A stretch of DNA of 31,799 bases. Source: a virus. Within the stretch, counting starts at the first letter, position 1, and every line of letters starts with the position of its first letter. Positions 1,123-24,832 of the stretch are shown piece by piece. The DNA is taken from the IMG/VR virus record IMGVR_UViG_3300042561_000503, positions 1 through 31,799 of that record; one strand, given 5' to 3'. A model generated the notes under the pieces. That model saw only the letters and a program-made list of their open reading frames with translations. It was not told where the DNA came from and searched no databases. The position numbers and the translations under genes were made by a program.

Positions 1123-2508
1123 TTAGTTCACAAATGCGGTTGCGACAAGTGGCTGATTGCTCGCGCTAAACGTGCAGGTTGATGGCGGCGTGGTGCCAGT
1201 AAGCGACCCGGAGCAGGTTCCCACGGTACCGCTGGTCCCGGCGTTAAACATATTCGAAAAGTTAGTCACCGTGCTGGTAACCAGCGTCGATGGGGTCCCC
1301 GACGTGCCAGCAAACAAGAAAATATACCAGCCGGGGTAGACAGTGACCGGAGAAAAGTTGGTGCATTTCTGCGCCCCGGTCACAGCGGTAGGAATGGCAC
1401 AATGCGCAATGCGAGTGGCTCCGTCGCCGCTGTAGAGCGCCACGACGATGCTATCAGGTGCCGAGGTCGTACCCACGTGCGCCACAGCTGTTTGTATCGT
1501 AGTCGGAGTTGCGACCTGCACCCGAACAGCCCGCAACGTCGTAGTAGTGGCGCCAAGGCTTGTGGCGACGCCACCGCCGAAAAAAGGCACGGTCGCGATG
1601 TACCCAAGGGCAGGGCTTACCTGTGACAAAGATGCGGTAGGATTTCCGGCTACGCCGTCACCGTTGGCTATCGTGATCCCGTTGCCAGCGGTCAGCGTGC
1701 GGGCCGCGCTCGTCCCCGCGCCAGTGCGAGCGACAAGGCCGTTGCTGCCGGGGTCCGCCGCCGTGGTGTATCCGATGGCCGCTTGCTTGCCGTTGAACGT
1801 GGACCAGTCAGCCGAAGTCAGCAGCCCGCGATTGGCCGCGCTGGATGACGGCAAATTGAACGTGTGCGCGGTGCCAGTCGAGTTGATGGCAAAGTCGGTC
1901 CCTGCGCTGCCAGTGGCGAAGGTCTGGGTTGATCCAGTCAGCGTGTTGAGTGACGTTATACCGCTACCGCCGCCGCTTGGAGTCTGCCAGCTTGCGTCGG
2001 TGCCGTTGCTCGTCAACACCGTACCGTTTGCGCCAATGCCTAGCCGGGCCAGCGCCGATGCGCCGCGAACGATCAGATCGCCGCGCGTGGTTGTCGGGTC
2101 GGTCAGCAGCGACGGAACGCCCGTCAGTTGCGACCACGCGATGCTAAACGATGGCGTAGGCGGAATGGCCGTCTCGATTGCCGCGATGGTCGTGGGGCCG
2201 GAGGCGGGCACCACCCAATAGCGAACGTAGGACGGGCCGCTGGCGGGGTAATACGTGGCCTTGTAGGACGTGCCAGACGGAAGGCTCCCGGTATTCGGTG
2301 CCAGCGATGCGGTGAACGTGCCGCCGCTGACCGTGAAGGTCTTCGCGTACCCAGCGTAATAGGTGCCGCCGTTGGTGATCGGCCCACGCTCCAAAACAAC
2401 ACGCCCAAAAAATGCCCCGGCGTCGAATCCGGAATTGATCGGCCCGTTTACGGTCACCTGTGCCCAGATGGCCGCCGAAACAAAAAAGAGCGCGAATGTT
2501 TTGGCCAT
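1123..2508 (-). CDS. Tail fibre / receptor-binding protein with a Sec-like signal peptide
   Basis: 461 aa. The first 17 residues form a typical Sec signal: Lys at position 3, a hydrophobic core [10 protein letters not shown], then WAQ before VTVNGPI. Residues about 20-115 form a beta-rich module with GGTYYAGY and a SLAPN turn, a pattern I know from phage fibres. Residues about 120-280 are Gly/Ser/Thr-rich fibre repeats including [21 protein letters not shown] and a [14 protein letters not shown] segment, typical of trimeric fibre shafts. The C-terminal 170 residues look like a beta-sandwich tip and contain two Cys pairs. AGGAG precedes the ATG. The fibre role is well supported by repeats and context. 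The signal peptide is odd, since virion proteins normally assemble in the cytoplasm. Confidence 0.8.
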
Positions 2509-2737: not shown

Positions 2738-5299
2738 CTAGATCGTGACTCCGTGAGTGTGCGCCGTGCCAGCGCTGGCCGGGCCAGTGGTGACGGTGCC
2801 GGTGGGCGCTTTGCCCGCCAGCGCCGCAGTGAGGCCGCTGATATCGCCGATGGTCAGCCCCAGCGCGGCCTTGATCGCCGCCACCAGCGCCGCGAAGTCG
2901 GCGTAGTTGCTGCCGGTGCCGCCGCGAGTGGTGGGGACAACGCCGGTGGTTTCGGTCGCCGACGCGAGGTCGATGGCCGCTGAAGTGATTTCCTTGCTGG
3001 CGTTCAGCTTCAGTGGCAGTGAAGCCGTGAGCGCCGACATGATGATCTTGGCCAGCGTCTCGATGTCACAGTTCGGCTTGATCGCGGTGAGCGTGGTTCC
3101 CGCATTGTTCTGGAACTGCACCAAATCGGTAGCCCCTTGGGTATCTCCGGCGCGCACGGCCAACTGAGTGAACGCCCCGGTTTCCTTGTCGTAGATCAGC
3201 ACCGTCTGCAATCCGCCCACTTCTTCAGCCTTGCGGCCCATCCAGACGCCAGACCTGCGCGCCGCCATGATCGAAACACCGGGGTCGGTGCCTCCGGTGT
3301 TGGTGGCATCGCCGAAGCTCAGGTCAAACAGTTCCGGTGACTTTCGGATGTACAGCGCGCGGAAAGACACCGCCAGCGTGTGCGTCCCGGTCCCGGCGCT
3401 CGTCAGGTTGATGGCCACGCCGCCCGCCGTCGCCGCCAGCTTCATCGATACGCCCGCCACCACGTCCCGCGCGTAGTACTTTGTGGCCGCCGCCAGGCCA
3501 GCGGGCAGCGTGCCGGTGGAAGCCACGTACAGCGCTTGTCCGTCGCTGAATGGATGCGCCACGGTCAGGATGTCCGTCGCAGCGTCAGCGGTGAAGGTGT
3601 AGATTCGGCTGGTTTGCCGCCAGTTCGGAAATGAGTCGTAGGCCGAATTGATGCTCTCGAATCCGCCCTGATCGTCGCCGCCAAAGTTCACGGTGTTGAT
3701 CCGCGAGATGTTCGGCAGCGAGTCATCCGGCCCGGTAGACTGAAGGCCGCCCAGCGCGTGAGTGAGTTCGATGGCCGGTGATTCGGTGCCGGTGTCCAGC
3801 ATCGCGTGTTCCAGCCGGGTCACCAACTGGCGGTCAAGCACCTGCGCCACGGTGCGCGAATACTGCGGGACATTCACGATCCGGTAGCCATAGGCATAGT
3901 CGGCCAGTCGGCCAGCCCTCATGCTGATGCCGCCGCCCACTTCCACCCGGCCGCCGCCACTGGCGGGGTCCCAGGCCTGCGAGATAATCGCGTGGGCGCC
4001 AGTCTCGCTCGAATAGACGTTGGCTTCCTCAATCGTGACGCCGCCACCGTTCAAGTTGATGGCCATCACCACGTTGGGAGTGCCGACGCCTTCCGTCGCT
4101 GACCGTTCGGCCTTGATGCTGTGAACGTGAACGCGGGTCGAAAACGCATTGACCACGCCCAGCGCCGCGACGTGGCAGTTGTCAGAGCTTACCCGCTCGA
4201 TAGTGTTTAGGCTGTTCTGGGACGGCTCGAACAACAACCCGAACCCGATGGCCACCTTAAATGTGCCGCTGCCGGTACTCGTGATATTGATCGCCGTCCC
4301 GCCGCTGGTGGCCGCCAGCTTGAACGTGTCGGTGGCCGCGTCCCGCACATAGTAGGGCATCCAGGCAGTAAGGCCACCGGGCATGGTGCCGCTGCTGTAG
4401 CAGAACACCATCTCGCCATCGACAAAGCCATGCGCCGCCGATGTAATTGTGTCGGTGCCGGTGTTGATGCCGCTAGGCGTTACCGTGGTGCCGTTGTAGA
4501 ACGATGAGAAGCGCCCGATGTGCGGAGGTGCGCCGAAATCATAGATGCGGCCACCGTGCCGCGGGAACCGCAGAGACCAAACGCGGTCGAGCAGGAAGTT
4601 CTCACCCAAGCGGTACAGATTGAATCCGCTGCCACGCTTGTTGGTGGCCTTGTCGCCGACTAGTGCGAGGTTCTGGATCGCCGCCGCGTGGAGGAAGTTG
4701 TCGCTGCCGCCGAAGTTCGGATCAAACGCCGAAATCAGCATATCCTCGTTGCTGTTCGGTGCCTGCCAGAGCGTTGTTGAGGGCCACTCACGATTGTTGA
4801 CCCAGGAGCCGTCGCCTACCAGTTCGGTGCCAAGCCACAGCTTCAGCCGCCCGGTCAGGTAGTCTCCTGACGGCAGCCCGATCCGGCCACCTGCACGCGT
4901 GTCCTTCATTGTGTCGATGACGCGCTGCAAGCTGGTGGTGTAGTCGAAAGCAGTGTAGCCCGCTGCGCTCGCTACGGTAGTTCCAGCAGCAGCCGCGAGC
5001 ACTGGATTGCCGCTGCTGATCGATGCGATGGTGGAAACGAGGGGAGCGCCGCCAGCACCTGCGCCTTGAATCACCATCGTCATGCCGATGTGATCGGCGC
5101 GGTAGGTGACACCCAGCACCGTTGCCGTACTGGATCCGCTGGAGATCGACACCCCGGACGCATAGGACCGGTAGTCTGGCTCAATGAATGCCTCAGTAGA
5201 GCCAACGCGCAGGAAGCTCCGCACGTCGATGGTGCGAAGCGCCAAGTCGTCGAGCAGTGCGCGGCCCCCACGTGGTGCGGTATCAGGTATATATCCCAT
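2738..5299 (-). CDS. Tailspike with beta-helix (pectate-lyase-like) fold
   Basis: 853 aa. The N-terminal about 110 residues form a virion-attachment region. Residues about 120-265 carry the start of a right-handed beta-helix (RIGLPSGDYL, LGTELVGDGSW) as in pectate-lyase-superfamily tailspikes, and helix-like rungs continue to about residue 560. Two related modules of about 85 residues, with a GTLPAGL/GTMPGGL turn, a YY motif and a FKLAAT/MKLAAT strand, lie at about 266-353 and 563-648. The last 60 residues resemble a fibre tip. Such proteins bind, and often cleave or deacetylate, surface polysaccharide. Catalytic residues cannot be named by eye. The start overlaps the hub stop (TGATG), so the two are coupled. 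Confidence 0.82.
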   Translation of the reverse strand: MGYIPDTAPRGGRALLDDLALRTIDVRSFLRVGSTEAFIEPDYRSYASGVSISSGSSTATVLGVTYRADHIGMTMVIQGAGAGGAPLVSTIASISSGNPVLAAAAGTTVASAAGYTAFDYTTSLQRVIDTMKDTRAGGRIGLPSGDYLTGRLKLWLGTELVGDGSWVNNREWPSTTLWQAPNSNEDMLISAFDPNFGGSDNFLHAAAIQNLALVGDKATNKRGSGFNLYRLGENFLLDRVWSLRFPRHGGRIYDFGAPPHIGRFSSFYNGTTVTPSGINTGTDTITSAAHGFVDGEMVFCYSSGTMPGGLTAWMPYYVRDAATDTFKLAATSGGTAINITSTGSGTFKVAIGFGLLFEPSQNSLNTIERVSSDNCHVAALGVVNAFSTRVHVHSIKAERSATEGVGTPNVVMAINLNGGGVTIEEANVYSSETGAHAIISQAWDPASGGGRVEVGGGISMRAGRLADYAYGYRIVNVPQYSRTVAQVLDRQLVTRLEHAMLDTGTESPAIELTHALGGLQSTGPDDSLPNISRINTVNFGGDDQGGFESINSAYDSFPNWRQTSRIYTFTADAATDILTVAHPFSDGQALYVASTGTLPAGLAAATKYYARDVVAGVSMKLAATAGGVAINLTSAGTGTHTLAVSFRALYIRKSPELFDLSFGDATNTGGTDPGVSIMAARRSGVWMGRKAEEVGGLQTVLIYDKETGAFTQLAVRAGDTQGATDLVQFQNNAGTTLTAIKPNCDIETLAKIIMSALTASLPLKLNASKEITSAAIDLASATETTGVVPTTRGGTGSNYADFAALVAAIKAALGLTIGDISGLTAALAGKAPTGTVTTGPASAGTAHTHGVTI
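3356..3609 (-). repeat. Tailspike internal module, copy 2
   Basis: Encodes about residues 563-648 of the tailspike. It is a diverged duplicate of the module at 4240-4500. Shared features in order are a TDILTVAHPF/TDTITSAAHGF strand, DGQALY/DGEMVF, a GTLPAGL/GTMPGGL turn, YY, then KLAATAGGVAINLTSAGTGT. Similarity is clear at protein level and partial at DNA level. Confidence 0.75.
4240..4500 (-). repeat. Tailspike internal module, copy 1
   Basis: Encodes about residues 266-353 of the tailspike, inserted between beta-helix segments. It pairs with the copy at 3356-3609. I recall the same module in unrelated phage structural proteins, so it is likely a mobile decorative domain, possibly carbohydrate-binding. 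Confidence 0.75.
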
Positions 5300-8763: not shown

Positions 8764-9089
8764 TGCTTTTTAGCCAGCCCCGCCGCCGCCAACATGCCCA
8801 AAAGCCCCCGCATTTGCGTGAGGTTGGCTTGAGGCGCAACCGTCTGCACTAGCGAGGGGAAGAAGTCGCCCGGAGTGAACGCGCGCTGATTCGGGGAACG
8901 GTGCGCGTTAGCGTAGAGAGTCGGCAGCATGGCGGCGCGATAATCTTCCATCCGGTCTACCTCCTGGTGAGCCTTCACGAGAGCGTCAAACTCTCTCATG
9001 CTCAACCGCCAAAATTCCCCGGTGCCGATTCCCCGCGCGCGCGCCCAGGCCCACAGCTTGAGCCAGTCTAGGCGAGCGGCGGGGCCGGA
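8760..9089 (-). CDS. Tail assembly chaperone, frameshifted C-terminal part (gpT-like)
   Basis: This frame has no convincing start of its own but lies open from within the upstream chaperone gene. A -1 shift at the slippery site 9089-9095 would join 93 residues of the first chaperone to 109 residues here, giving about 202 aa. The joined part runs through LDWLKLWAWARARGIG and GEFWRLSMREFDALV, which is the EFW-L-xxREF pattern of tail chaperones next to tape measure genes. In lambda the equivalent gpG-T product binds the tape measure protein and recruits tail tube subunits. The ATG at 8997-8999 could be an internal start but would lose the EFWRL motif. Confidence 0.75.
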   Translation of the reverse strand, partial: SGPAARLDWLKLWAWARARGIGTGEFWRLSMREFDALVKAHQEVDRMEDYRAAMLPTLYANAHRSPNQRAFTPGDFFPSLVQTVAPQANLTQMRGLLGMLAAAGLAKKQ

Positions 9090-9367
9090 GGGTTTTCCGG
9101 CCCGCTGTTGTTCGGCAACGCCTCCACAAGAGCCGCCAGCGCCACATTCATGAGCGCCGGGTCCACCATCGCCCCAACAGCTTCGACCGTCAGCGCCGGG
9201 TCTTCATGCTTCAACCCCGCCCAGATAATCACGCGCATCGCCGAAAAGGTGTTGCTGGAAACCGCTTCTGCGAGCGGCTTCCCGGTAGTCTCTTCGATGG
9301 CGCATAGCGCGTTGAGGTCGTAGCGCAACGTGCGCGGCTTGTCGAGTTCAATGGTGGTGGTCTTCAT
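9068..9367 (-). CDS. Tail assembly chaperone, N-terminal part (gpG-like)
   Basis: 99 aa. The core LRYDLNALCAIEETTG, then SAMRVIIWAGLKHEDPALT, matches the chaperone family that includes GTA gp10-type proteins. It follows the tail tube gene by 3 nt and precedes the tape measure gene, the standard place for this pair. The last six codons, rich in Pro and Ala, are replaced in the frameshifted product. It would be made in excess over the fusion, as in lambda gpG versus gpG-T. The start is the only ATG that keeps the conserved N-terminal strand. Confidence 0.85.
   Translation of the reverse strand: MKTTTIELDKPRTLRYDLNALCAIEETTGKPLAEAVSSNTFSAMRVIIWAGLKHEDPALTVEAVGAMVDPALMNVALAALVEALPNNSGPENPPAPPLA
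9082..9103 (-). other. Perfect 7-bp hairpin enclosing the slippery site
   Basis: On the minus strand GGGCCGG is followed by an 8-nt loop and CCGGCCC. The loop contains the complete slippery heptamer. A stem this strong would slow an approaching ribosome, but it must be opened before the slip codons reach the decoding sites, unlike a usual downstream stimulator. Confidence 0.75.
9089..9095 (-). promoter_or_regulatory. -1 ribosomal slippery heptamer
   Basis: Read on the minus strand the sequence is A AAC CCT in the zero frame, which fits X XXY YYZ exactly (XXX = AAA, YYY = CCC). A -1 slip gives AAA CCC and then enters the open frame that encodes the chaperone C-terminus. The zero-frame stop comes six codons later at 9068-9070, the expected distance for a programmed shift. 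Confidence 0.7.
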
Positions 9368-9370
9368 CGT

Positions 9371-9784
9371 TTACGCCAGCGACGGGACCGAGGTAATCTG
9401 GATCATGAAATCAGCCGTCAAGCGGCCATTTACGGCAATGCCTGACAGCGCAAACCCAGACACCAGCCCGGTGAACGTGTAGAGATCTTCCGGCGACGTG
9501 GGCAACAGGATGGCGCAATTCTGCTCATTCACGTTGGTGAGGTAGCCGAGCATGCCAGTCGAGCCATCGTTCTGCGTGGCCACGTTGGGATCAAAACTCA
9601 CCTTGACGGTGATCGACGCGCCCGCCGCGATGCCCTTCAGGAACTTCTGCACGGTGTCACCCAAAACGGTCGTGGGGACCATTTCGTAGTTCCAACCGAA
9701 GCCGTCGATGCTCTCAACCTGTGCCAAAGTGACCAGTGGAGAGCCAATCTGGAATACCGCCGTATTTGCGAGAAAGTTTGCCAT
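9371..9784 (-). CDS. Major tail (tube) protein
   Basis: 137 aa. The protein is compact and beta-rich, with an N-terminal FLANTAVFQIG strand, a central SFDPNVATQNDG loop, and SGFALSGIAVNGRLTADFMI near the C-terminus, as in short siphovirus tail tube proteins. GAGG lies about 8 nt upstream of the ATG. Its position just before the chaperone pair and tape measure gene strongly supports the call. It would polymerise as hexameric rings around the tape measure protein. It is separated from the tail terminator by two glycosyltransferase genes, which is unusual. Confidence 0.85.
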   Translation of the reverse strand: MANFLANTAVFQIGSPLVTLAQVESIDGFGWNYEMVPTTVLGDTVQKFLKGIAAGASITVKVSFDPNVATQNDGSTGMLGYLTNVNEQNCAILLPTSPEDLYTFTGLVSGFALSGIAVNGRLTADFMIQITSVPSLA

Positions 9785-9799
9785 TGCTGTACCTCGTTC

Positions 9800-10624
9800 C
9801 TATATTACCGCTTCTTGCTCGCGCGGGAACCGCGCATCTTCGCACGCCCTGATTTTGTTGAACACGGGCAACGATGGGTCAAGCTGCGACCACCGCCCCA
9901 AAAATATCGCCTTGCGCTTCTCGTATTCTTCCTTAGGATCAACGCCCGAAGCCCGCAGCGCATCCCATGAACTATGCCAGTTGCGGTGTAGATACGTGAC
10001 ACCGTGCAAGCTGACCGCATCCCCGGCAATCGCGCGGGTCCGCATCTGCATGTGAAGATCGTCATCTTCCCATCCCCAGCCGGGGCCGTAGCCATCGTAG
10101 AACCGTAGGCCTTGCTGGAAGCTCTTGACGCGGAACATGCCGTACTGTGTCCACGCGCACTCCCAGCGGTTGTACGATCTGTCCAGTACTTCATCCGGCT
10201 TGATGAGCGGCGTCACCTTCTCGCGGAAGCGGGATTGCCCCATCGACCAGAAGCCGACGCAATAGCTCGTATCGGGCTCCTCTTTGAGCGCCTTGGCTAG
10301 ATACAGCGCTGAACCGGGGATCATCTCGATATCGCCATCAAGGAACAGCAGCATATCGAACTGCTCACGTATAGCCAAGTCAATGGCCTTGTTCCGCGCC
10401 CGCGCGTTGCCGATGTTCTCCGGAAGCCGCATCACAACGGAATCGACCACTTTGGCGCGCTCCAGAATCTCCGCGCTGCCATCGGTCGAACCGTTATCAA
10501 TGGCAATGGCAAGCGCCTCATGCCCAGCCGCCTCCAGCGCCGCGCGTTCACGGAGCACCGAAAACCACGTATCAGCGATCACGTCGCCAGTCTGCCAGCT
10601 CAACATCGATAAAGCGATCTTCAA
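9800..10624 (-). CDS. Glycosyltransferase, GT-A fold (family 2 / 7C-like)
   Basis: 274 aa from a TTG at 10622-10624. That start is preferred because GGAGGG lies 7 nt upstream, because it overlaps the preceding stop (TTGA), and because the first strand KIALSMLSW of the fold follows at once. An upstream ATG at 10819 would only add antisense-like residues. The nucleotide-sugar domain shows DNGSTDGS (about 43-50), NIGNARARNKAI (70-81) and the metal-binding DGD (96-98). PGWGWEDDDL (about 181-190) is the acceptor-side motif of galactosyltransferase-type C-terminal domains. It would transfer a sugar to a surface polysaccharide, virion protein or DNA. The acceptor is unknown. Confidence 0.88.
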   Translation of the reverse strand: MKIALSMLSWQTGDVIADTWFSVLRERAALEAAGHEALAIAIDNGSTDGSAEILERAKVVDSVVMRLPENIGNARARNKAIDLAIREQFDMLLFLDGDIEMIPGSALYLAKALKEEPDTSYCVGFWSMGQSRFREKVTPLIKPDEVLDRSYNRWECAWTQYGMFRVKSFQQGLRFYDGYGPGWGWEDDDLHMQMRTRAIAGDAVSLHGVTYLHRNWHSSWDALRASGVDPKEEYEKRKAIFLGRWSQLDPSLPVFNKIRACEDARFPREQEAVI

Positions 10625-11268
10625 GCCACTACCCTCCACTGTTGACAGCCTAACACTACGCGCTTTGGTGACGTGTTGCCGTCGTGAATTCCGCCCATAA
10701 AATGCGCCTCGCCATTCAGCGTGGCAAGCTGGCCGCAATCCGCCGCGTCGTACACGAAAGCGTTGTCCTCGCCAATCGCGTAGGCCGGAAACATATGAGC
10801 TTCCCAGTACTTGCGCCAATAGGCGAGAGTGGCCCCCATCGCGTACCCCTCGCGGCTGGAATGGTACGTGTAAACCTTGCTGGCATCCCTGAATCGACCA
10901 CTGCTGTAACCGATCACCTGCTTCCCGGACTGAATGAGTCCTTCGACCAGATATTTGATATGCCCAGCGCCGTAGAAGTCATCGTCATCCATGTGAACGA
11001 TGATGTCTCCCGTTGCGGCCTCTACGGAGCGATTGCGCGCAAAGCCCGTGTTGTGGTGCTCAATCGGGAACCATCGCGTCTCCATGCGCTGACGCGCGGC
11101 CCGCGTGCGCATCACGGTCGTGTACTCCCGGCGCTCATCCGAAGAATCGGCAATGATCCACTCATCCGGCATCAGCGTTTGCGCCCTGATGCACGCTTCG
11201 AGCGCCGGGAGCATGTCGGCCCGGTTGCGCGTTGGCGTCACTACCGAAATGGAGAAGCTCTTAAACAT
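10621..11268 (-). CDS. Glycosyltransferase family 2
   Basis: 215 aa. The N-terminal strand ISVVTPTRNRADML, NTGFARNRSVEAATGD (about 73-88) and the acidic metal site HMDDDDF (92-98) are diagnostic of the GT-A family 2 fold. The C-terminal part holds an aromatic acceptor region (YHSSREGYAM) and IGEDNAFVY. It starts inside the end of the tail terminator gene (8-nt overlap) and its stop overlaps the next start, so the two enzymes are coupled and made with tail proteins. It may act on the same glycan as its neighbour. No signal peptide or membrane span is seen, so it should act in the cytoplasm. Confidence 0.88.
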   Translation of the reverse strand: MFKSFSISVVTPTRNRADMLPALEACIRAQTLMPDEWIIADSSDERREYTTVMRTRAARQRMETRWFPIEHHNTGFARNRSVEAATGDIIVHMDDDDFYGAGHIKYLVEGLIQSGKQVIGYSSGRFRDASKVYTYHSSREGYAMGATLAYWRKYWEAHMFPAYAIGEDNAFVYDAADCGQLATLNGEAHFMGGIHDGNTSPKRVVLGCQQWRVVA

Positions 11269-11659
11269 TGAACAGGATCACCCGCACTCTCACAATTCCA
11301 TGCCATTGCCGCGTCTTTGCGGGGTCGCCAGCGTCCTCGAACACATTCACCTGCTCTACCAGCGCTTGCACGTTCTGACAGCCTTCTACGTCGAACGTGG
11401 CCCGATGTAGCGCCTGATGCAATTGACCAACCAGCAAATTGACTTGATCCCGTTGCGGTTCGCGCGTGAACACGTGAACTTCGATCACCTGTTGAGAGCC
11501 GCGCTCAACCAGCAAATCATCCGGCGTTGCGATGGCGTCGCCTACCCGCACAAACGGGAATGGATCATGGCGCGGCGGTTCATCGAACACGCCCGTTATC
11601 GTGAGATCAAGCCCGGTGATGTAAGCGATCAGCGCCGCCCGCGCTTCGGTGATCTTCAC
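11261..11659 (-). CDS. Tail terminator / tail completion protein (DUF3168-like)
   Basis: 132 aa from a GTG that overlaps the upstream stop (GTGA). The layout fits ring-forming tail terminators such as lambda gpU: an N-terminal helix (ARAALIAYITGL), a central PFPFVRVGDAI strand and loop, a QVIEVHVFTRE strand, a helix QVNLLVGQLHQAL, and a final strand HGIVRVRVILFNV. It caps the tail and joins it to the head. Position after the gp10-like protein is standard. The next genes are glycosyltransferases rather than the tail tube gene. Confidence 0.75.
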   Translation of the reverse strand: MKITEARAALIAYITGLDLTITGVFDEPPRHDPFPFVRVGDAIATPDDLLVERGSQQVIEVHVFTREPQRDQVNLLVGQLHQALHRATFDVEGCQNVQALVEQVNVFEDAGDPAKTRQWHGIVRVRVILFNV

Positions 11660-12117
11660 TTTAGAGACTCCCGCACCGCTCGCTTCATCTTCGCCAGTAG
11701 CGTTTTCCGCGCGCGCTCAAAGGCTGGACCCAGCGCCGGACGCGCCGCCGTGCCCCGCCGTGCGATAGCCTGTTGAACCGCGTAGGCGATGCGCTCGCCC
11801 TCTTTGCCAAACTTGCGCTTTGCCCAATACAGCAGCGGCGCAATAGGTGCCCAATGCGGCCCGGTGCCGTGCTCGACAAACTTGGAGTGTTGAAGATCGG
11901 AGCCGACACGCGCCGCCATGCGCCCCGGTTGAATCACAATGCGGTAGCTCGCCCGCAGTTGCCCGGTGTTCACCGCTGGGTACGGTTGAGCGCTGGTCAG
12001 CGCCCGTTTTGTATCGCTCTCGATCTCCACAGCCGCTACCTGAATGGCACGCGCCACATAATCAGGGACGCGCGACGCAAGCGCCCGGACGGCCGGGGAG
12101 AAGGTATTCGTGACCAC
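11656..12117 (-). CDS. HK97 gp10-like head-tail joining protein
   Basis: 153 aa. The family hallmarks are in order: VNTGQLRASYRI (about 49-60), FVEHGTGPHW (about 80-89) and ARPALGPAFERAR near the C-terminus. These proteins sit at the head-tail interface of HK97-like siphoviruses. The start is a GTG directly after the connector stop. An ATG alternative is not available without losing the N-terminal helix. The stop overlaps the tail terminator start. Confidence 0.88.
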   Translation of the reverse strand: MVTNTFSPAVRALASRVPDYVARAIQVAAVEIESDTKRALTSAQPYPAVNTGQLRASYRIVIQPGRMAARVGSDLQHSKFVEHGTGPHWAPIAPLLYWAKRKFGKEGERIAYAVQQAIARRGTAARPALGPAFERARKTLLAKMKRAVRESLK

Positions 12118-12729
12118 CTACAGCACCTCGATTCGGTACTGATCGATTTCCGCCGCCACGTCAGACGGAATCGGCGCTTTGAGCGAAGCTTCATACTTGG
12201 GGTCTTGCCCTTGATCACCCGTGTAGCTGCGCATGGCCAACTTCATGATGGCCAGCTTGAGCGACGCGGGGACGGCCACAGGAGGCGATAGCGTAGTTCC
12301 AAAGCCCGCCGTATACCGCACCACCAGCCCGCCGATGAGCGTAGGCAAAGACGGAACCGAACTGAAGTACAGCCGATTGCCCAACAGGCGATAGGTCGTG
12401 CTGGCCAGCGTCTCTACCAACGCGCCTTGATCGTCGCGCGTGGTAACACTTGCGATCGCCACAGGCCCCATTGGAAGCCGAACAAAGGCTGACCCAGCGC
12501 CGTTTTCATCCATCGCGCTGAAGGTGACATCAATCACCCGATCCACAAAGAAACGTCGCGCCCGCTCTTCCGCCTGATTTAGTGCCCCATTTAAGGCCAC
12601 CTGAAGGATTGAATCGTGAGCGCTGAACCCAGCCGCGCGCGCGTAGTCCTTGAACTCGTACAGTTCGACCGGAACCGCCGCCGCATCAGTAACTAGCGTG
12701 ATCTGTTCGTACATGGTGGCTTCGGCCAT
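12118..12729 (-). CDS. Head-tail connector (phiE125 gp8 / HK97 gp6-like)
   Basis: 203 aa from ATG 12729; a second ATG at 12714 is equally possible and neither has a strong ribosome-binding site. It has YEFKDYARAAGFSAHDSIL near the N-terminus, a helix with QAEERARRFF, the beta segment GPVAIASVTTRDDQGA, and the C-terminal helices SLKLAIMKLAMRSY. This is the usual order of adaptor proteins that form a ring under the portal. The 5' end overlaps a small Cys-rich gene by 37 nt in another frame, suggesting coupled translation. Confidence 0.82.
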   Translation of the reverse strand: MAEATMYEQITLVTDAAAVPVELYEFKDYARAAGFSAHDSILQVALNGALNQAEERARRFFVDRVIDVTFSAMDENGAGSAFVRLPMGPVAIASVTTRDDQGALVETLASTTYRLLGNRLYFSSVPSLPTLIGGLVVRYTAGFGTTLSPPVAVPASLKLAIMKLAMRSYTGDQGQDPKYEASLKAPIPSDVAAEIDQYRIEVL

Positions 12730-12839
12730 TCTCGCGGTGCTGGTGGATAGGGCATCGGGTAGGCTTCATGGCATCGACAGCAAAACAGCCGCGATACGTG
12801 CGGCCTGTGCCCGAAGATGCGACAGAATAGCCAGTTCAT
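12693..12839 (-). CDS. Tiny Cys-rich protein with a CRIFGH...CCRC motif
   Basis: 48 aa in a frame different from the connector. It starts MNWLFCRIFGHRPH and continues to FCCRCHEAYPMP, then a proline-rich tail. CxxFGH followed about 10-12 residues later by CxRC is a pattern I know from very small phage zinc-finger-like proteins, so one metal site formed by Cys6, His11 and Cys20/21/23 is plausible. No good ribosome-binding site is visible; AT-rich bases precede the ATG, just after the hairpin at 12851-12872. The gene fills what would otherwise be a 158-nt gap. Confidence 0.6.
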   Translation of the reverse strand: MNWLFCRIFGHRPHVSRLFCCRCHEAYPMPYPPAPREWPKPPCTNRSR

Positions 12840-14775: not shown

Positions 14776-16713
14776 TTACTCTACCACCTCATAGGTCTGC
14801 GTACAGCGGCAGTTGATCGTCTGAGCCGCCGCCGCGCCCATGCTCGAATCGCCGGGGAACATCAGCCGCGAGCCGGAAACGCTAAACGCTTCCTTCAGCC
14901 CGCGCACCTGCCCATTCACGGCCCGGTGCGAATCCCTGAGCCGTGGGTCAGGCGTGGCCAGCCACTTCTTACGCAGCTCTAGCCCGGTGGCCTGAGCCGC
15001 CGCCACGCTTCCCAGATTGGACGCCGCTACCACTTCCGTTCGCGCGATGCGTTCGGCCCGGTAGTCCGTGAACCCGGCATAGGACGCCGCGATGACGCGC
15101 TGAAGGTTGAACGTACTGGCACCTTCGAGCAGCGCCCGCGTGATGTCGGTCTTCAGCAGTTCGCGCGTGTAGTCGCCGATACCTTCTACCTTTTCCGCCG
15201 TGGTATCGCGTACCCATTGAAGCACCGCTGCCAGCCACACGTCAGAAACGGCTTTCGTCTCGAAGCGGCCGTCCTGCGCCTTGAGGTCGTTGGTGGTTTC
15301 CGTCGCAAAGTCGCTGGCCACCCGCATAACGATGGAGCGATACACCTCAGCCCATGCGGGTTCATTAGACTTCACCGCCTGATCGATGGCCGCGCTATTG
15401 CCATTCGCCGCCGCCGCAATGACCAACTCCCGCTCGCGGGCAAACGCATCTTCAATCGCCCGCCGCGCCTGAAGTTCAAAGCGCCGCCGCCGATCATCAA
15501 ACGATTTCCAGACAATCTCTTCATCAGACTTTGCCACCGCCGCCGCGTCAGTGATGTAGGTTCCGCCAGTGGGCACTCCGTAGCCCAGCTCATCTAGCGC
15601 CTGTTCCCGCGTCAGCAATCCCACCGCGTAGAGATCGCTAACGCGCCGATACGCGCTCTCGCGGTCCTCTGCCAGCGCGTCAATCTTGTCCTTGTCGAAC
15701 CCGATGGAGATTCCAGCGCCGAATCGCGGCATCAGCCAGTGATTCAGGAATCCCGTGATCAGCGTGAGCAGCGGGATAACCGCTTCCGTGTACAGGCCCT
15801 TACGCGCTTCCCTGAAGTTGCTGAACGTCTTGGAGTCGGTATCGCCGATCAGTTCCGGTGGAACGTGGAAGATCGCCGCGATAGTGCGCTTGTGAATCTT
15901 CAGTCCGTCCCACATGCCCAGCGCTGACGGAGACAGTCCCATCTCCTGCCACTTGAAGCCGCCCTCAAACAATCCCGGCTTGCCGTAGTTGGGGCCGCTG
16001 AATGTTTCATTCAGGCTTGTCTTCAGTTGGTTGAACTGGTCAGCAGTCAGCGAGCGCTCCGTGAACAGGCCACCAGACAAACGCCCCTGATTCTTCAATA
16101 CCCGCTTATTAAGTTCGTGCGCGTCGTTCTCCTGATCGATCACGGCCATAGCCGCCGCCATCGGCGAGAAGCCGTACCAATCGTCGTCAGGGTGGAAGAA
16201 TCGCACGTGGCCGACGTTTTCAGCTGGTAGCGTGATCCGCGCCACTGGCCCCTGATAGTCGTAATCCTTGACGGAGCCGTCGCGGTTGGTGTTAATCGTT
16301 ACCCGGTCAGAGCGCAGCACATACAGGAACCGTGGCGCGCCGCGCGTGTCGCTGGCCGCTTCGATGTAGGCCGTGCCATAAATCAGCAGGTTGGCCGCGA
16401 ATGCTTCAACGAACGCTGACCAGTCCTGATGCTCGTTGGGCCGTTCGATCAGGCGATAGGCCGGGTGAGTATACGGAAGGTCAATGTGCTGATCCCGCGC
16501 GCCCTCGCGGTAGAGAATGGGATCAATCTGCCGGAGGTTGGAAGTAATCAGGTTCACGCAGGCGTAAGCGTCCGGGTTGCGCATGTAGCCATTTCGGGCT
16601 AACGCAATCCCGGCATTGTCCGACCAGCCCGCAGAGCCCAGCCCCAGCGTGACCAGCGAGCGCGCCACCGCCGATTCTTTCGTTTCGGTCGTCTGCCAGA
16701 ACTTCCAGTTCAT
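14776..16713 (-). CDS. Portal protein fused to a MuF-type head morphogenesis domain
   Basis: 645 aa from ATG 16711-16713, which overlaps the terminase stop (ATGA) and has AGGAG just upstream; an in-frame start at 16770 lies inside the terminase gene and is unlikely. Residues about 1-400 are an HK97-family portal: NPDAYACVNLITSNLRQI, GTAYIEAAS, YGFSPM, then FHVPPELIGD and SNFREARKGLYTEAV. Residues about 500-645 match the Mu gpF / SPP1 gp7 domain: ERIARTEV, W..TPDPRLRDSHRAVNGQV, FPGD, NCRCTQTY. The portal forms the DNA entry ring. MuF-type proteins are minor head proteins, often injected. Here both are one polypeptide. Confidence 0.92.
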   Translation of the reverse strand: MNWKFWQTTETKESAVARSLVTLGLGSAGWSDNAGIALARNGYMRNPDAYACVNLITSNLRQIDPILYREGARDQHIDLPYTHPAYRLIERPNEHQDWSAFVEAFAANLLIYGTAYIEAASDTRGAPRFLYVLRSDRVTINTNRDGSVKDYDYQGPVARITLPAENVGHVRFFHPDDDWYGFSPMAAAMAVIDQENDAHELNKRVLKNQGRLSGGLFTERSLTADQFNQLKTSLNETFSGPNYGKPGLFEGGFKWQEMGLSPSALGMWDGLKIHKRTIAAIFHVPPELIGDTDSKTFSNFREARKGLYTEAVIPLLTLITGFLNHWLMPRFGAGISIGFDKDKIDALAEDRESAYRRVSDLYAVGLLTREQALDELGYGVPTGGTYITDAAAVAKSDEEIVWKSFDDRRRRFELQARRAIEDAFARERELVIAAAANGNSAAIDQAVKSNEPAWAEVYRSIVMRVASDFATETTNDLKAQDGRFETKAVSDVWLAAVLQWVRDTTAEKVEGIGDYTRELLKTDITRALLEGASTFNLQRVIAASYAGFTDYRAERIARTEVVAASNLGSVAAAQATGLELRKKWLATPDPRLRDSHRAVNGQVRGLKEAFSVSGSRLMFPGDSSMGAAAAQTINCRCTQTYEVVE

Positions 16714-17993
16714 AGGCTCCTGATCCTCAGTTCCGGTTCGGCGTCGATCACCAGCGCCGTGATTGCCCACACGAGAGCGTCAAGGCGGTCCGGCGATTTA
16801 TCGTAATCGGAGGTGAACTCCATCATCTGCAATTCTAGCGCGTTAAACGGAACCGTGTGTTTGACGCGCTTTTGCTCATAGAGCGCCGCGACTGGTTCAG
16901 CCCGCAGCACCTTACCCCGCGATGCCCTTACCGCGCTGTAGGCGATCTGAGGCCGTACCGTGCGGATCACGCGCTCTACCAGGTCGCCGCCGTTGTTCAC
17001 TTCAGCAATGATGCGATCGGCTCCGAATGAGTCGAAGGCGTTCACCGCCCTGTTTGCCCAGCCGTCAGGCGGTAGGCGGCAACTGAGATCAGCCAGCACG
17101 TACACCAGGCCATCGACGCCGACGCCAGCAACAATGATTCCGGTTTCGTCCGCATCCGCCCCGCTGGTGACTGCCGGGTCAATCGCCACCACAACACGCC
17201 GCAGGTCAGGCCGCGTAATACCGCACCGCGTGGCATCGATCATGGCCGATGTCCACAGCGCGCCTTCGGTATCCATCAGAATTTCGCCGTCAAGCTCCTG
17301 ACGGCCGATTCTGGTCCCTTCGTACCGTTTTACGATCTGGCTGAAGAATGACGGTGCGAGGTTGCGCCGATTCTCTTTGGTGGTGCCGCGTGATATCACC
17401 GCCGCTTCATTTGCCATCAGGTCAGTGAGCAGCTTGATAGGCCGTGGAGTGGTTGAGATCAGGCATCGCGGCTTCCCTTTGCGAAGGCCAAAGGACAGCA
17501 TGTCCCACGTATCCTGTACGTTCTTCCAAGCCGCCAGCTCATCGCACCAGGCCGCGTCAAAGTTGGGGCCGCGCAACCGATCCGGCTCCTCAGCAGAGTA
17601 GAGCCACGCGCGGGAGCCATCCTTCCAGATGAGCTTACCGTGGCTGGCCGCGTAGATAGGGCGATCATCAGGAGGATGCACGGCCATGATGCCGGATTCG
17701 CCCAAGACCATCGTTTCGCGCGCATCGGCCTTTGTCGGTGCCACCAGTGCAATACGCCTCGCTCCGTTGCGCCGTGCCCACCTGACGAACTCCGCGCCCG
17801 TGCGAGTCTTGCCCCAACCACGGCCCGCGAGTGCCAGCCAATACGTCCAATCGCCTGGTGGTGGCAGTTGGCCAGGTCTGGCGAACAACGTCCAATCGTA
17901 GGCAAGCTGCTGGATTTCCAGCGGTGACATTTCCGCCAGCGCGCGCCGTATGGCGTCTTTACTGCGATTCTTCGGAAGCGTCGTCAGATTCAT
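16710..17993 (-). CDS. terL: Terminase large subunit
   Basis: 427 aa from ATG 17993 (a TTG two codons upstream is possible). The ATPase domain shows Walker A GRGWGKT at about 57-63 and a Walker-B-like FDAAWCDE, with a probable coupling motif LISTTPRP. The nuclease domain has the acidic triad candidates in VVAIDPAV, IIAEVNNGG and SPDRLDALVWA, the RNase H-like order. It packages DNA through the portal, using ATP, and cuts the concatemer. It overlaps the small subunit by 35 nt and the portal by 4 nt. Confidence 0.96.
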   Translation of the reverse strand: MNLTTLPKNRSKDAIRRALAEMSPLEIQQLAYDWTLFARPGQLPPPGDWTYWLALAGRGWGKTRTGAEFVRWARRNGARRIALVAPTKADARETMVLGESGIMAVHPPDDRPIYAASHGKLIWKDGSRAWLYSAEEPDRLRGPNFDAAWCDELAAWKNVQDTWDMLSFGLRKGKPRCLISTTPRPIKLLTDLMANEAAVISRGTTKENRRNLAPSFFSQIVKRYEGTRIGRQELDGEILMDTEGALWTSAMIDATRCGITRPDLRRVVVAIDPAVTSGADADETGIIVAGVGVDGLVYVLADLSCRLPPDGWANRAVNAFDSFGADRIIAEVNNGGDLVERVIRTVRPQIAYSAVRASRGKVLRAEPVAALYEQKRVKHTVPFNALELQMMEFTSDYDKSPDRLDALVWAITALVIDAEPELRIRSL

Positions 17994-18396
17994 CAGCAAG
18001 TCGAGCGGCCAGCTTCTCCATCAGCGCTTCAGTGTCAGGCGGCGCGCTCATTTCGATCTTCTCCGGCGCATCGATGCCCAGCAGCTTTGCGCGGCGGCCC
18101 ATGATCGATAGCACCTGATTCGTTGACGATGGGTCAGCCTGTAGCGCCTTCTGCCAGTGCGCGGCCTGTAGTTCGTCCAAGCGTTGCATCTCGATATCGC
18201 GGACGTGTTCCGCCAGTTCCGCTGACGTTTCGCGCAACCGCTGAAGTTCACCGAGCACGAGGTTGTATGCGTGCGATGTAGCGATCCCGAGCGTCTGCCC
18301 GATGGCCACATATCCCATTCCGCTAATGCGCAGTTTCAGCGCATCCTGTGCATTCACAGCAGCTTTGACGGTTGAAGGCTTTGCTTTCTGACGCAT
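17959..18396 (-). CDS. terS: Terminase small subunit (probable)
   Basis: 145 aa. An N-terminal helix-turn-helix-like region (ALKLRISGMGYVAIGQTLGI, about 20-39) is followed by a long coiled coil (about 48-90, RLRETSAELAEHVRDIEMQRLDE) and an acidic C-terminal tail, the layout of phage small terminases that recognise DNA and oligomerise. Gene order and overlap with terL support it. The ribosome-binding site is weak (AGAAG), so it may depend on translation of the small gene upstream. Confidence 0.8.
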   Translation of the reverse strand: MRQKAKPSTVKAAVNAQDALKLRISGMGYVAIGQTLGIATSHAYNLVLGELQRLRETSAELAEHVRDIEMQRLDELQAAHWQKALQADPSSTNQVLSIMGRRAKLLGIDAPEKIEMSAPPDTEALMEKLAARLADESDDASEESQ

Positions 18397-22317: not shown

Positions 22318-22471
22318 CGACATCGCACGGTGTTGGCTGGAGTTGGAGCGCATTGCCAACGAAACAGACCCCGGCGAGGGCTGGGGGCTATGCGTCGGCT
22401 GGTGCGATTGGCAGAGTGAACTACTGGAGATCAGGAGAGAGATGAATGCAACAAGAGAGATTGATGTTTGA
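22292..22471 (+). CDS. Small Trp/Cys-containing protein
   Basis: 59 aa from the ATG at 22292. It overlaps the previous gene by 26 nt and the next by 26 nt in other frames. It reads as an acidic helical protein with CWLELERIANETDPGEGWGL and CVGWCDWQSELLEIR. Three Cys and four Trp are notable for its size. The overlaps make it less certain than its neighbours. Confidence 0.5.
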   Translation: MEDRSADVSDIARCWLELERIANETDPGEGWGLCVGWCDWQSELLEIRREMNATREIDV

Positions 22472-23621
22472 TGATTCCGGCGATCCCGTGAGTGAGGCCG
22501 AAAAAGCGTTCTCCTCACTGGCCAACCTTGAAGAGGCGGCAAAAATTGAGGCTATAAACCGGATCAAGATTGCCCTTCGAAAGTATTCGCCGTTTGGCGC
22601 TGAGCCTGTTGATTGCGTTATCTGGGTTAAGTCTGATTTGGTTGAGGCCAACGACTACAACCCCAACAGCGTTGCGCCTCCAGAAATGAAGCTCTTGGAG
22701 CGCTCGATTGAAGCTGATGGCTACACTCAGCCAATCGTGGCTTGGCCCCGCGAAGACAAGTTTGAAGTGATCGATGGGTTTCACCGAAACCGGATCGGCA
22801 AAGAATCTGCTGTAGTCCGCAAGCGGACTCTTGGGTATCTTCCCGTCACAGTCATTCGGCAGGATCGCGAGGAGCTTGGAGACCGCATGGCGTCAACCAT
22901 TCGCCACAACCGGGCGCGCGGAAAGCACAAGGTTGAATCCATGTCCGATATTGTGATTGAGTTGAAGCGCCGCAATTGGACGGATGAACGCATCGCGCGT
23001 GATCTCGGCATGGATCAAGACGAAATTCTCCGGTTGTGCCAGATTACCGGGCTGGCTGAGATGTTTAGCGACCGCGAGTTCTCCGCATCATGGGACGTGG
23101 AAGGCAACATTACGGAGGACGATTTCAAAGGGATCACCGACGATGTGAGCGAGTATGGCGAGGATGCAAAAGAATTCCGCACCGTCAACACAAGCGACGA
23201 AGAGCGAATTTTCCACACGTACGAAAAGTGGGAATGCTTCAAGGCTGGCTTTTACGCCACCACATTGAACGGAATGACCAAGGAAGAGGCAGAGCGAAAG
23301 TATGCTGACTTTTTGGCCGACGATCAAGTGTTTGGCGCGGCCTTGGAGCGCGTCACCAGCCAATGGAAGAATTCGTGTGAGCATTACCTCACCAATAAGG
23401 CCATGAATCGTATAGCGTGGCTGGGGCAGGCGTCTGTATGCTTGGCTCTCGGAATTCCATCATCGTTTCGCGGTGGGTTCAATTTGCTGCCGCCAGACAA
23501 GCAGGAAGCAGCCAATGCGCTCGCGCTGCGGTATCTCAATCGCTGGCTTGTTGCCAATGGCCTGAAGGAAGTGACGCTGGAAGAAGCATACTCCGGCGAC
23601 CGTCAATCGGTGATCTACTAA
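22446..23621 (+). CDS. IbrB-like ParB/Srx-fold protein
   Basis: 391 aa. Residues about 55-160 are a ParB/sulfiredoxin-like domain: ANDYNPNSVAPPEMKLLERS, IEADGYTQPIV, then the nucleotide-site motif EVIDGFHRNRIG at about 107-118 and STIRHNRARGKH. A helix-turn-helix-like region follows (about 165-205). The last 180 residues are a specific extension that ends in AYSGDRQSVIY. This layout and the coupled PAPS-reductase-like gene match the IbrB/IbrA pair, known in E. coli for regulating eib genes. Its biochemical role is not settled; ParB-fold relatives bind CTP or ATP. AGGAGAG precedes the start, and the stop overlaps the next start (TAATG). Confidence 0.8.
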   Translation: MQQERLMFDDSGDPVSEAEKAFSSLANLEEAAKIEAINRIKIALRKYSPFGAEPVDCVIWVKSDLVEANDYNPNSVAPPEMKLLERSIEADGYTQPIVAWPREDKFEVIDGFHRNRIGKESAVVRKRTLGYLPVTVIRQDREELGDRMASTIRHNRARGKHKVESMSDIVIELKRRNWTDERIARDLGMDQDEILRLCQITGLAEMFSDREFSASWDVEGNITEDDFKGITDDVSEYGEDAKEFRTVNTSDEERIFHTYEKWECFKAGFYATTLNGMTKEEAERKYADFLADDQVFGAALERVTSQWKNSCEHYLTNKAMNRIAWLGQASVCLALGIPSSFRGGFNLLPPDKQEAANALALRYLNRWLVANGLKEVTLEEAYSGDRQSVIY

Positions 23622-24832
23622 TGGCGATCAAATGCTTTCGAGATGTCAACGTGCTGGAAGCTGCACGCAAGCGGATATCGATTACGTTCGACACAGTAGA
23701 GCGCGTGTTCGTGGCGTTCTCTGGCGGCAAGGATTCATCAGTCATGCTTCACCTCGTCATGGATGAGGCGATCAAGCGCAATCAGCGCGTGGCCGTCATG
23801 TACATCGATTTTGAGGCGCAATATGCGGAGACCGTTGCGCACGTCGAAGAAATGTTCGAGATGTACAAGGACCACATCGACCCGCATTGGGTTTGCGTTC
23901 CGATGCTGCTACGCAACGCAGTCACGAACTACGAGCCACGCTGGTGCTGCTGGGATGAAACAAAGCGGCATCTATGGATTCGGGAGAAGCCTAAGGTCCA
24001 CAAGAGCATTGACGATTACCCGTTTGCCCTGCCAGAAATGGAGTTTGAGGAGTTCGTGGTCTTGTTTGCCAAGTGGTACGGAAAGGGGAAGCGAACGGCT
24101 GGATTCATCGGGATACGCGCTCAAGAATCGCTTCACCGATATTGCGCGGTGGCCACTTGGGAGAAAAAAGACCTGATGCTAGACGGCCATCGGTGGACCA
24201 CGAAGATCACCGATCAGGCGTACAACATCTACCCTATTTATGATTGGCTCACCACCGACATCTGGACCTATCACGCCAAGTACCCTTGGAAGCCACACAA
24301 CGCGATCTACGACAAAATGCAGATGGCCGGGGTTCCTCTGTCTCAGCAACGCCTTTGTCAACCATTTGGAGATGACCAACGCCGGGGGCTATGGCTCTAT
24401 CACATTCTTGAGCCTCAGACGTGGTTCAAGCTGGTGGTCCGGGTGAACGGAGCAAACTCAGGCGCTCTCTACGTCGAAGAGAACGGCAATATCAGCGGGT
24501 ACAACAAGATCACGAAGCCAGCGAACCACACATGGAAGAGCTTCTGCAATCTGCTACTCCAGACGATGCCGAAAAAGACGAGAGAGCATTACGTCTACCG
24601 CTTTAAGAAGTTCATCCATGGCTGGCATGATCGCGGGTACACTTCCATCCCCGAAGAGGCCCCGCCAGAACTTGAGGCAAAGTGCTGGGCACCTTCATGG
24701 CGTCGGATGTGCAAGGTGCTTCTTCGAAACGATTACTGGTGCAAGGGACTTGGCCAGACTCAACCAAAATCAGACGCTTACGGGCGATACAAAGCCATCA
24801 TGAAGGAGAAGAAAGCAGATGGACAAAGCTAA
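23621..24832 (+). CDS. IbrA-like PAPS-reductase / PP-loop protein (DUF3440)
   Basis: 403 aa from ATG 23621. FSGGKDSSVML has the PP-loop SGGKDS at about 34-39, which activates a substrate through ATP pyrophosphate chemistry. A Cys/Trp-rich strip (YEPRWCCWDETKRHLW) and IGIRAQESLHRY follow, as in PAPS-reductase relatives. The C-terminal half (NIYPIYDWLTTDIW, PLSQQRLCQPFGDDQRRGLW) is the DUF3440 region of IbrA. Such enzymes resemble DndC of phosphorothioation systems, but DndC partners are absent. With the ParB-like protein it may modify nucleic acid, nucleotides or sulfur compounds, or regulate transcription. It is larger than classical CysH. Confidence 0.85.
   Translation: MAIKCFRDVNVLEAARKRISITFDTVERVFVAFSGGKDSSVMLHLVMDEAIKRNQRVAVMYIDFEAQYAETVAHVEEMFEMYKDHIDPHWVCVPMLLRNAVTNYEPRWCCWDETKRHLWIREKPKVHKSIDDYPFALPEMEFEEFVVLFAKWYGKGKRTAGFIGIRAQESLHRYCAVATWEKKDLMLDGHRWTTKITDQAYNIYPIYDWLTTDIWTYHAKYPWKPHNAIYDKMQMAGVPLSQQRLCQPFGDDQRRGLWLYHILEPQTWFKLVVRVNGANSGALYVEENGNISGYNKITKPANHTWKSFCNLLLQTMPKKTREHYVYRFKKFIHGWHDRGYTSIPEEAPPELEAKCWAPSWRRMCKVLLRNDYWCKGLGQTQPKSDAYGRYKAIMKEKKADGQS

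Follow-up and report, generated by a model that had tools for sequence, protein, structure and literature searches.

In the GtrABC systems of O-antigen conversion, the membrane-anchored GtrB is found together with the membrane flippase GtrA. Glycosylation of the virion itself by phage enzymes is reported, in the literature found here, for mycobacteriophages, which modify capsid and tail tube proteins in this way according to the accessible part of PMC12363180; the same text, citing Freeman et al. 2023, states that the capsid cannot be glycosylated without Che8 gp110 and Corndog gp38, respectively. The positions of glycosyltransferase (GT) genes were viewed in seven annotated phage records, a non-random set hand-picked from match lists. 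They lie inside the head-tail genes in three records (LittleE, Sixama and Dylan), just upstream of the terminase in another three (JonJames, prophiGD27-1 and prophiFVLQ01-1) and at the right genome end in Che8. In Mycobacterium phage Dylan (Corndogvirus), the portal-protease slot is taken up by genes 32-35, one for a methyltransferase and three for GTs; of the four, three have homologues in the Che8 108-109-110 set. LittleE carries four GTs between capsid and connector, and Sixama carries two (genes 91-92) one gene upstream of the annotated major tail protein, gene 94, which bears that name by the record's note alone, PHROGs having given it no family. GT genes thus recur within virion operons, and in one lineage the outcome has been experimentally reported. 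An earlier note on the DNA analysed here goes too far in its premise that accessory regions are the usual place of phage GTs.

Organization of the locus

The DNA analysed, hereafter the window, is a linear fragment (31,799 bases, IMG/VR) from an uncultured tailed virus of bacteria. On its minus strand, a run of virion genes starts with terminase, continues with those for portal, protease, capsid, connector and tail, and reaches as far as a candidate tailspike, and two GT genes, hereafter GT1 and GT2, lie on the same strand between the tail terminator and major tail protein genes (Table 1). The sequence bears out the coordinates that had been given for the pair in the earlier note, as well as the terminator/GT1 and GT1/GT2 overlaps described there. 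The gap between GT2 and the tube gene is 15 nt. The mechanically called frame of GT2 begins at 10819, and its TTG at 10624 is preceded by a GGAGGG located ca. 7-8 nt upstream.

Table 1. Coordinates of the GT genes and of virion genes of the window
Feature	Position	Strand	Evidence or remark
Terminase	16710-17999	-	Start of virion gene run
Tail terminator, upstream neighbour of the GT pair, GTG start	11261-11659	-	PF11367 9.2e-13; phrog_176 1.7e-13
Terminator/GT1 reading-frame overlap, 8 nt	11261-11268	-	Sequence; kept in L002
GT1, glycosyltransferase family 2, 215 aa, ATG start	10621-11268	-	PF00535 3.2e-15
TTGA, GT1 stop codon overlapped by GT2 start codon	10621-10624	-	Sequence; kept in L002
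GT2, glycosyltransferase family 2, 274 aa, TTG start	9800-10624	-	PF00535 7.3e-12
Major tail (tube) protein, downstream neighbour	9371-9784	-	phrog_158 6.3e-10; PF16460 3.3e-5 (under curated cut-off)
Candidate tailspike	2738-5299	-	Weak pectate-lyase-type match

The overlapping frames suggest co-transcription, and possibly translational coupling, of the GTs with the tail genes; no promoter-like site was found on the minus strand from 9000 to 12800. The further claim that the two enzymes are made in the same amounts as tail proteins is unsupported: equal yields do not follow from overlapping codons, since the overlaps and the TTG start of GT2 fit far lower yields as well, and catalysts need no equal dose.

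Two other features of the window are recorded here. The frame of the terminase large subunit (429 aa, TTG start) shares 61 nt with the portal frame, and terminase models cover chiefly its C-terminal part; the gene may be split, or its start wrongly called. On the plus strand, at 22446-24832, a ParB-like gene (phrog_2159) and a PAPS-reductase/DUF3440 gene (phrog_2302; PF11922 and PF01507, with a weak DndC match) overlap.

Properties of the two enzymes

Both proteins belong to glycosyltransferase family 2: PF00535, which has a curated cut-off of 23.3 bits, scored 56.9 bits for GT1 and 46 bits for GT2. GT1 is predicted to have an intact GT-A fold. Its structure model (pLDDT 82.9, pTM 0.84) aligned with solved GT-A enzymes with Z up to 19.4 over 193 residues, placing it in that fold, and the best matches, with Z of 17-19, were heparosan synthase 2, a Leptospira GT, WrtF, CgT/GalT1, RmlT and SpsA. 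Sequence-profile matches were to heparosan synthase B (9.6e-13) and GalT1 (2.3e-7). GalT1/CgT acts on a streptococcal surface glycoprotein, within a cytosolic protein-glycosylation pathway. With its acidic motifs HMDDDD and GED present, GT1 looks active. The description of the pair as two different GT-A enzymes is supported for GT1 by this model; for GT2, whose model has a pLDDT of 39.5, what stands is the PF00535 match that both proteins share.

GT2 carries the motifs DGD and GWGWEDDDL. The latter, at residues 182-190, had been noticed earlier as galactosyltransferase-like, and we take it to resemble eukaryotic galactosyl- and GalNAc-transferases; the motif is there, but Pfam galactosyltransferase models gave no match at E<=1. 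A search with the GWGWEDD pattern returned six viral stretches, two of which belong to the window's own group. As for the remaining four, the motif lies in a GT in L043 and in other proteins in L042 and L044, and it was absent from the ORFs picked in L046, which shares genes with L042. In L043 (659-2494), which is a short viral stretch, each strand carries one GT gene, and one of the two combines GWGWEDDDL with a Che8 109-like match (6.8e-8).

Conservation and probable gain of the gene pair

One independent relative of the window, L002, was counted, with 92.5% nucleotide identity over 4528 nt; six further stretches (L001, L003, L005, L007, L008 and L022), 100% identical to the window, were left out as non-independent. 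The terminator-GT1-GT2-tube order and both overlaps are kept in L002. Base differences between the two sequences, given as synonymous:nonsynonymous, were 29:6 for GT1 and 54:6 for GT2, comparable with 27:1 for the terminator and 25:7 for the tube gene. Judged by this synonymous bias, purifying selection appears to act on both GT1 and GT2, and, because their GC and GC3 are like those of neighbouring genes, they do not appear compositionally foreign. Chance open reading frames were also considered, and are ruled out by the Pfam matches of both genes together with the synonymous bias.

Distant relatives were picked by portal or capsid similarity. The terminator is followed directly by the tube gene in L035, and by a 116-aa unknown protein and then the tube gene in L034, with no GT between in either case. 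Nostoc phage Nsp-JY10 and Microcystis phage Mae-JY04 have tail genes without a GT at the terminator-tube site, and PF00535 is absent from both records. Since all four lack a GT at this site, the pair is probably a gain in the window's lineage. Such a gain would also be expected of accidental cargo, that is, a moron-like insertion that the tail operon tolerates and that does nothing for the particle. We consider this explanation distinctly unlikely, as the synonymous bias, the overlaps conserved in L002 and the neighbour-like GC3 all speak against it.

Searches further afield concerned the same site. Terminators matching PF11367 turned up in 3 of 246 genomes from the phylum of Pseudarthrobacter (G018) and in 12 of 249 from that of Neobacillus (G017), and a local GT1-derived profile together with phmmer with 22 GTs showed no GT in any of these 15 regions (495 genomes, from two phyla that are possibly not the host's, with some regions cut by contig ends). 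The survey is weak, as the profile falls short of a full PF00535 scan and itself misses GT2. Run in the same way on L009, L010, L023 and L034-L041, it gave no GT match in any of the 11. In the literature on phage virion glycosylation and tail-adjacent GTs, in a search with subscription papers mostly outside its reach, none of the titles listed dealt with terminator-tube GTs. The position between terminator and tube was not seen in the relatives examined.

Relatives of GT1 and GT2 in viruses and cells

The window DNA had no match among 50,697 phage records. At the protein level, GT2, the major tail protein and the L016 GT described below likewise had no match in phages, and GT1 had a single weak one (27.5% over 46%). 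GT2 matched 65 of the 246 genomes from the phylum of G018 at E<=1e-5, nearly all by short N-terminal GT-domain matches, and 3 of 72,556 plasmid records.

The nearest viral relatives of GT1 outside the window's group were found in L004 (same contig as L012) and in the IMG/VR phages L013, L016, L017, L018, L019 and L021. In L004, the GT1-like gene comes after apparent tail-tip genes and before an integrase-like gene, both judged from the ORF list. In L016 and L021, the relatives are 31-34% identical to GT1 and form part of a cassette which, as checked with PHROGs, lies between the portal and the next gene, a head-maturation protease in L016. The L016 cassette holds two methyltransferases, a phrog_2644 glycosyltransferase and the GT1-like gene; that of L021 holds three GTs, the middle one of which matches GTs of 59 actinobacteriophage records, including Che8 gp108, with 30-37% identity over 80-97% of its length among the 40 matches listed. 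These cassettes resemble the window locus in their virion-operon location and in holding the closest non-group viral relatives of GT1, and differ from it in their portal-protease slot, variable content and phage lineage. The contigs L013, L016-L019 and L021, near-identical otherwise, carry variable GT and methyltransferase cassettes from portal to head-maturation protease, a swap site.

GT1-like genes also occur in cells, as in the Neobacillus locus L026, where one lies beside genes resembling polysaccharide genes. A Pedobacter contig (L025, 1949-11336) has a tandem array of seven GT1-like genes mixed with other small genes.

The cellular polysaccharide-type locus L026 is consistent with a different acceptor, in that the pair could decorate a polysaccharide or cell-wall polymer of the host, for example blocking superinfection or the re-adsorption of released phage. 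The nearest solved folds of GT1, which include polysaccharide, rhamnan and teichoic-acid enzymes, point the same way, as do the exopolysaccharide GT models that GT1 and GT2 both weakly match and the candidate tailspike, whose weak pectate-lyase-type match suggests that the host may well bear a glycan coat. On the other hand, neither GT1 (maximum 19-residue hydropathy 0.58) nor GT2 (1.13) has a membrane segment, and no membrane-protein candidate was found among the 31 ORFs of the window, itself a fragment (maximum hydropathy 1.81). In this the locus is unlike GtrABC: it shares with those systems a phage-borne family-2 GT, and GT2 weakly matches the GtrB-like phrog_841 (0.055), but its GTs lack a membrane segment or flippase partner and sit in a tail operon, a position that would be late for superinfection exclusion. 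On balance, modification of the host surface seems unlikely.

Comparison with virion glycosylation systems

Like Dylan, the window has several virion-operon GT genes that overlap or abut each other and structural genes, so that the pair counts as a virion-operon GT cluster of the Corndogvirus type. Unlike Dylan, it does not use the portal-protease slot, and it has neither the methyltransferase nor the Che8 gp110-type GT. Che8 gp110 belongs to PF01755, for which neither GT1 nor GT2 gave a match at E<=1 (these two GTs having been scanned, not every ORF of the window). Genes 108-110 of Che8 resemble the pair as a phage GT set, and glycosylation of the virion is reported for them in the accessible part of PMC12363180; they differ in lying at the right genome end, away from virion genes. 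No phmmer link at E<=1e-3 was found between Che8 108, 109 or 110 and the window GTs. Profile comparison matched GT1 to the Che8 108-type GT domain (hhalign 95.5%), a link that may reflect the superfamily only, and aligned GT2 with the Che8 109-type over just 26 columns with a probability of 50%. LittleE genes 15-21 and Sixama genes 91-92 are alike in placing GTs among head or tail genes, and unlike in their slots and GT families; at E<=1e-3, phmmer connected none of their GTs with GT1 or GT2. By analogy, the window pair most likely works like the Che8/Corndog system; membership in that cassette family is not claimed.

A further use of phage GTs in general, proposed in the accessible part of PMC10202952, is DNA modification, whereby the enzymes would glycosylate modified phage bases and protect them from host nucleases. 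For the window pair this is very improbable: a PHROGs search of 30 ORFs of this genome fragment revealed no base hydroxymethylase or similar partner, and the location of the pair within the tail operon does not speak for it.

Proposed function

Taken together, GT1 and GT2 are most likely cytosolic GTs, made from the late operon, that assemble a short glycan on at least one virion protein, a reading to which we give somewhat better than an even chance. It is supported by the tail-operon position and the overlaps, kept in L002 with synonymous bias; by the lack of a membrane segment in either enzyme; by the GT cassettes in virion operons of L016/L021, Dylan, LittleE and Sixama; and by the requirement for Che8 gp110 and Corndog gp38 in capsid glycosylation, as given in the accessible text of PMC12363180. 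Against it count the lack of a PF01755 match (the Che8 gp110 family) in either GT, the occurrence of GT1-like genes in cellular loci as well (L026, L025) and the polysaccharide and teichoic-acid enzymes among the nearest solved folds. Late transcription of the virion operon would give both GTs together with the tail proteins. In the cytosol, GT1 and GT2 would use host nucleotide sugars on the acceptor protein, with one of them attaching a sugar to which the other adds, in an order that may be either, and the glycan would be built before or during particle assembly.

A narrower version of this proposal is that of a tail-dedicated module, in which GT1 and GT2 would modify the tail tube during its production, so that the tail ends up coated with glycan. 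The two genes would owe their place between terminator and tube to this role, and the operon slot would predict the acceptor. The Ser/Thr content is 26.9% in the candidate structural protein at 1123-2508, 20.3% in the tail tip and 17.5% in the tube protein; it does not favour the tube as acceptor and decides nothing. The protein at 1123-2508 (minus strand, 461 aa) has a weak virion structural match and is the richest in Ser+Thr of the 13 proteins counted. We regard dedication to the tail as doubtful. The earlier note had the pair glycosylating the virion, for example tube or tailspike; virion glycosylation stands as the most likely function, with precedent in other phages, and the tube is not favoured over spike or capsid.

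Were the tail-dedicated version true, the slot of a GT cassette (portal-protease, capsid-connector or terminator-tube) would predict which virion protein is the acceptor. More broadly, for the glycosylation of virion proteins in general, the presence of related GT cassettes in virion operons of uncultured, unrelated phages would point to a wider occurrence of sugar-coated particles, and this would bear on their adsorption, stability and recognition by the immune system.
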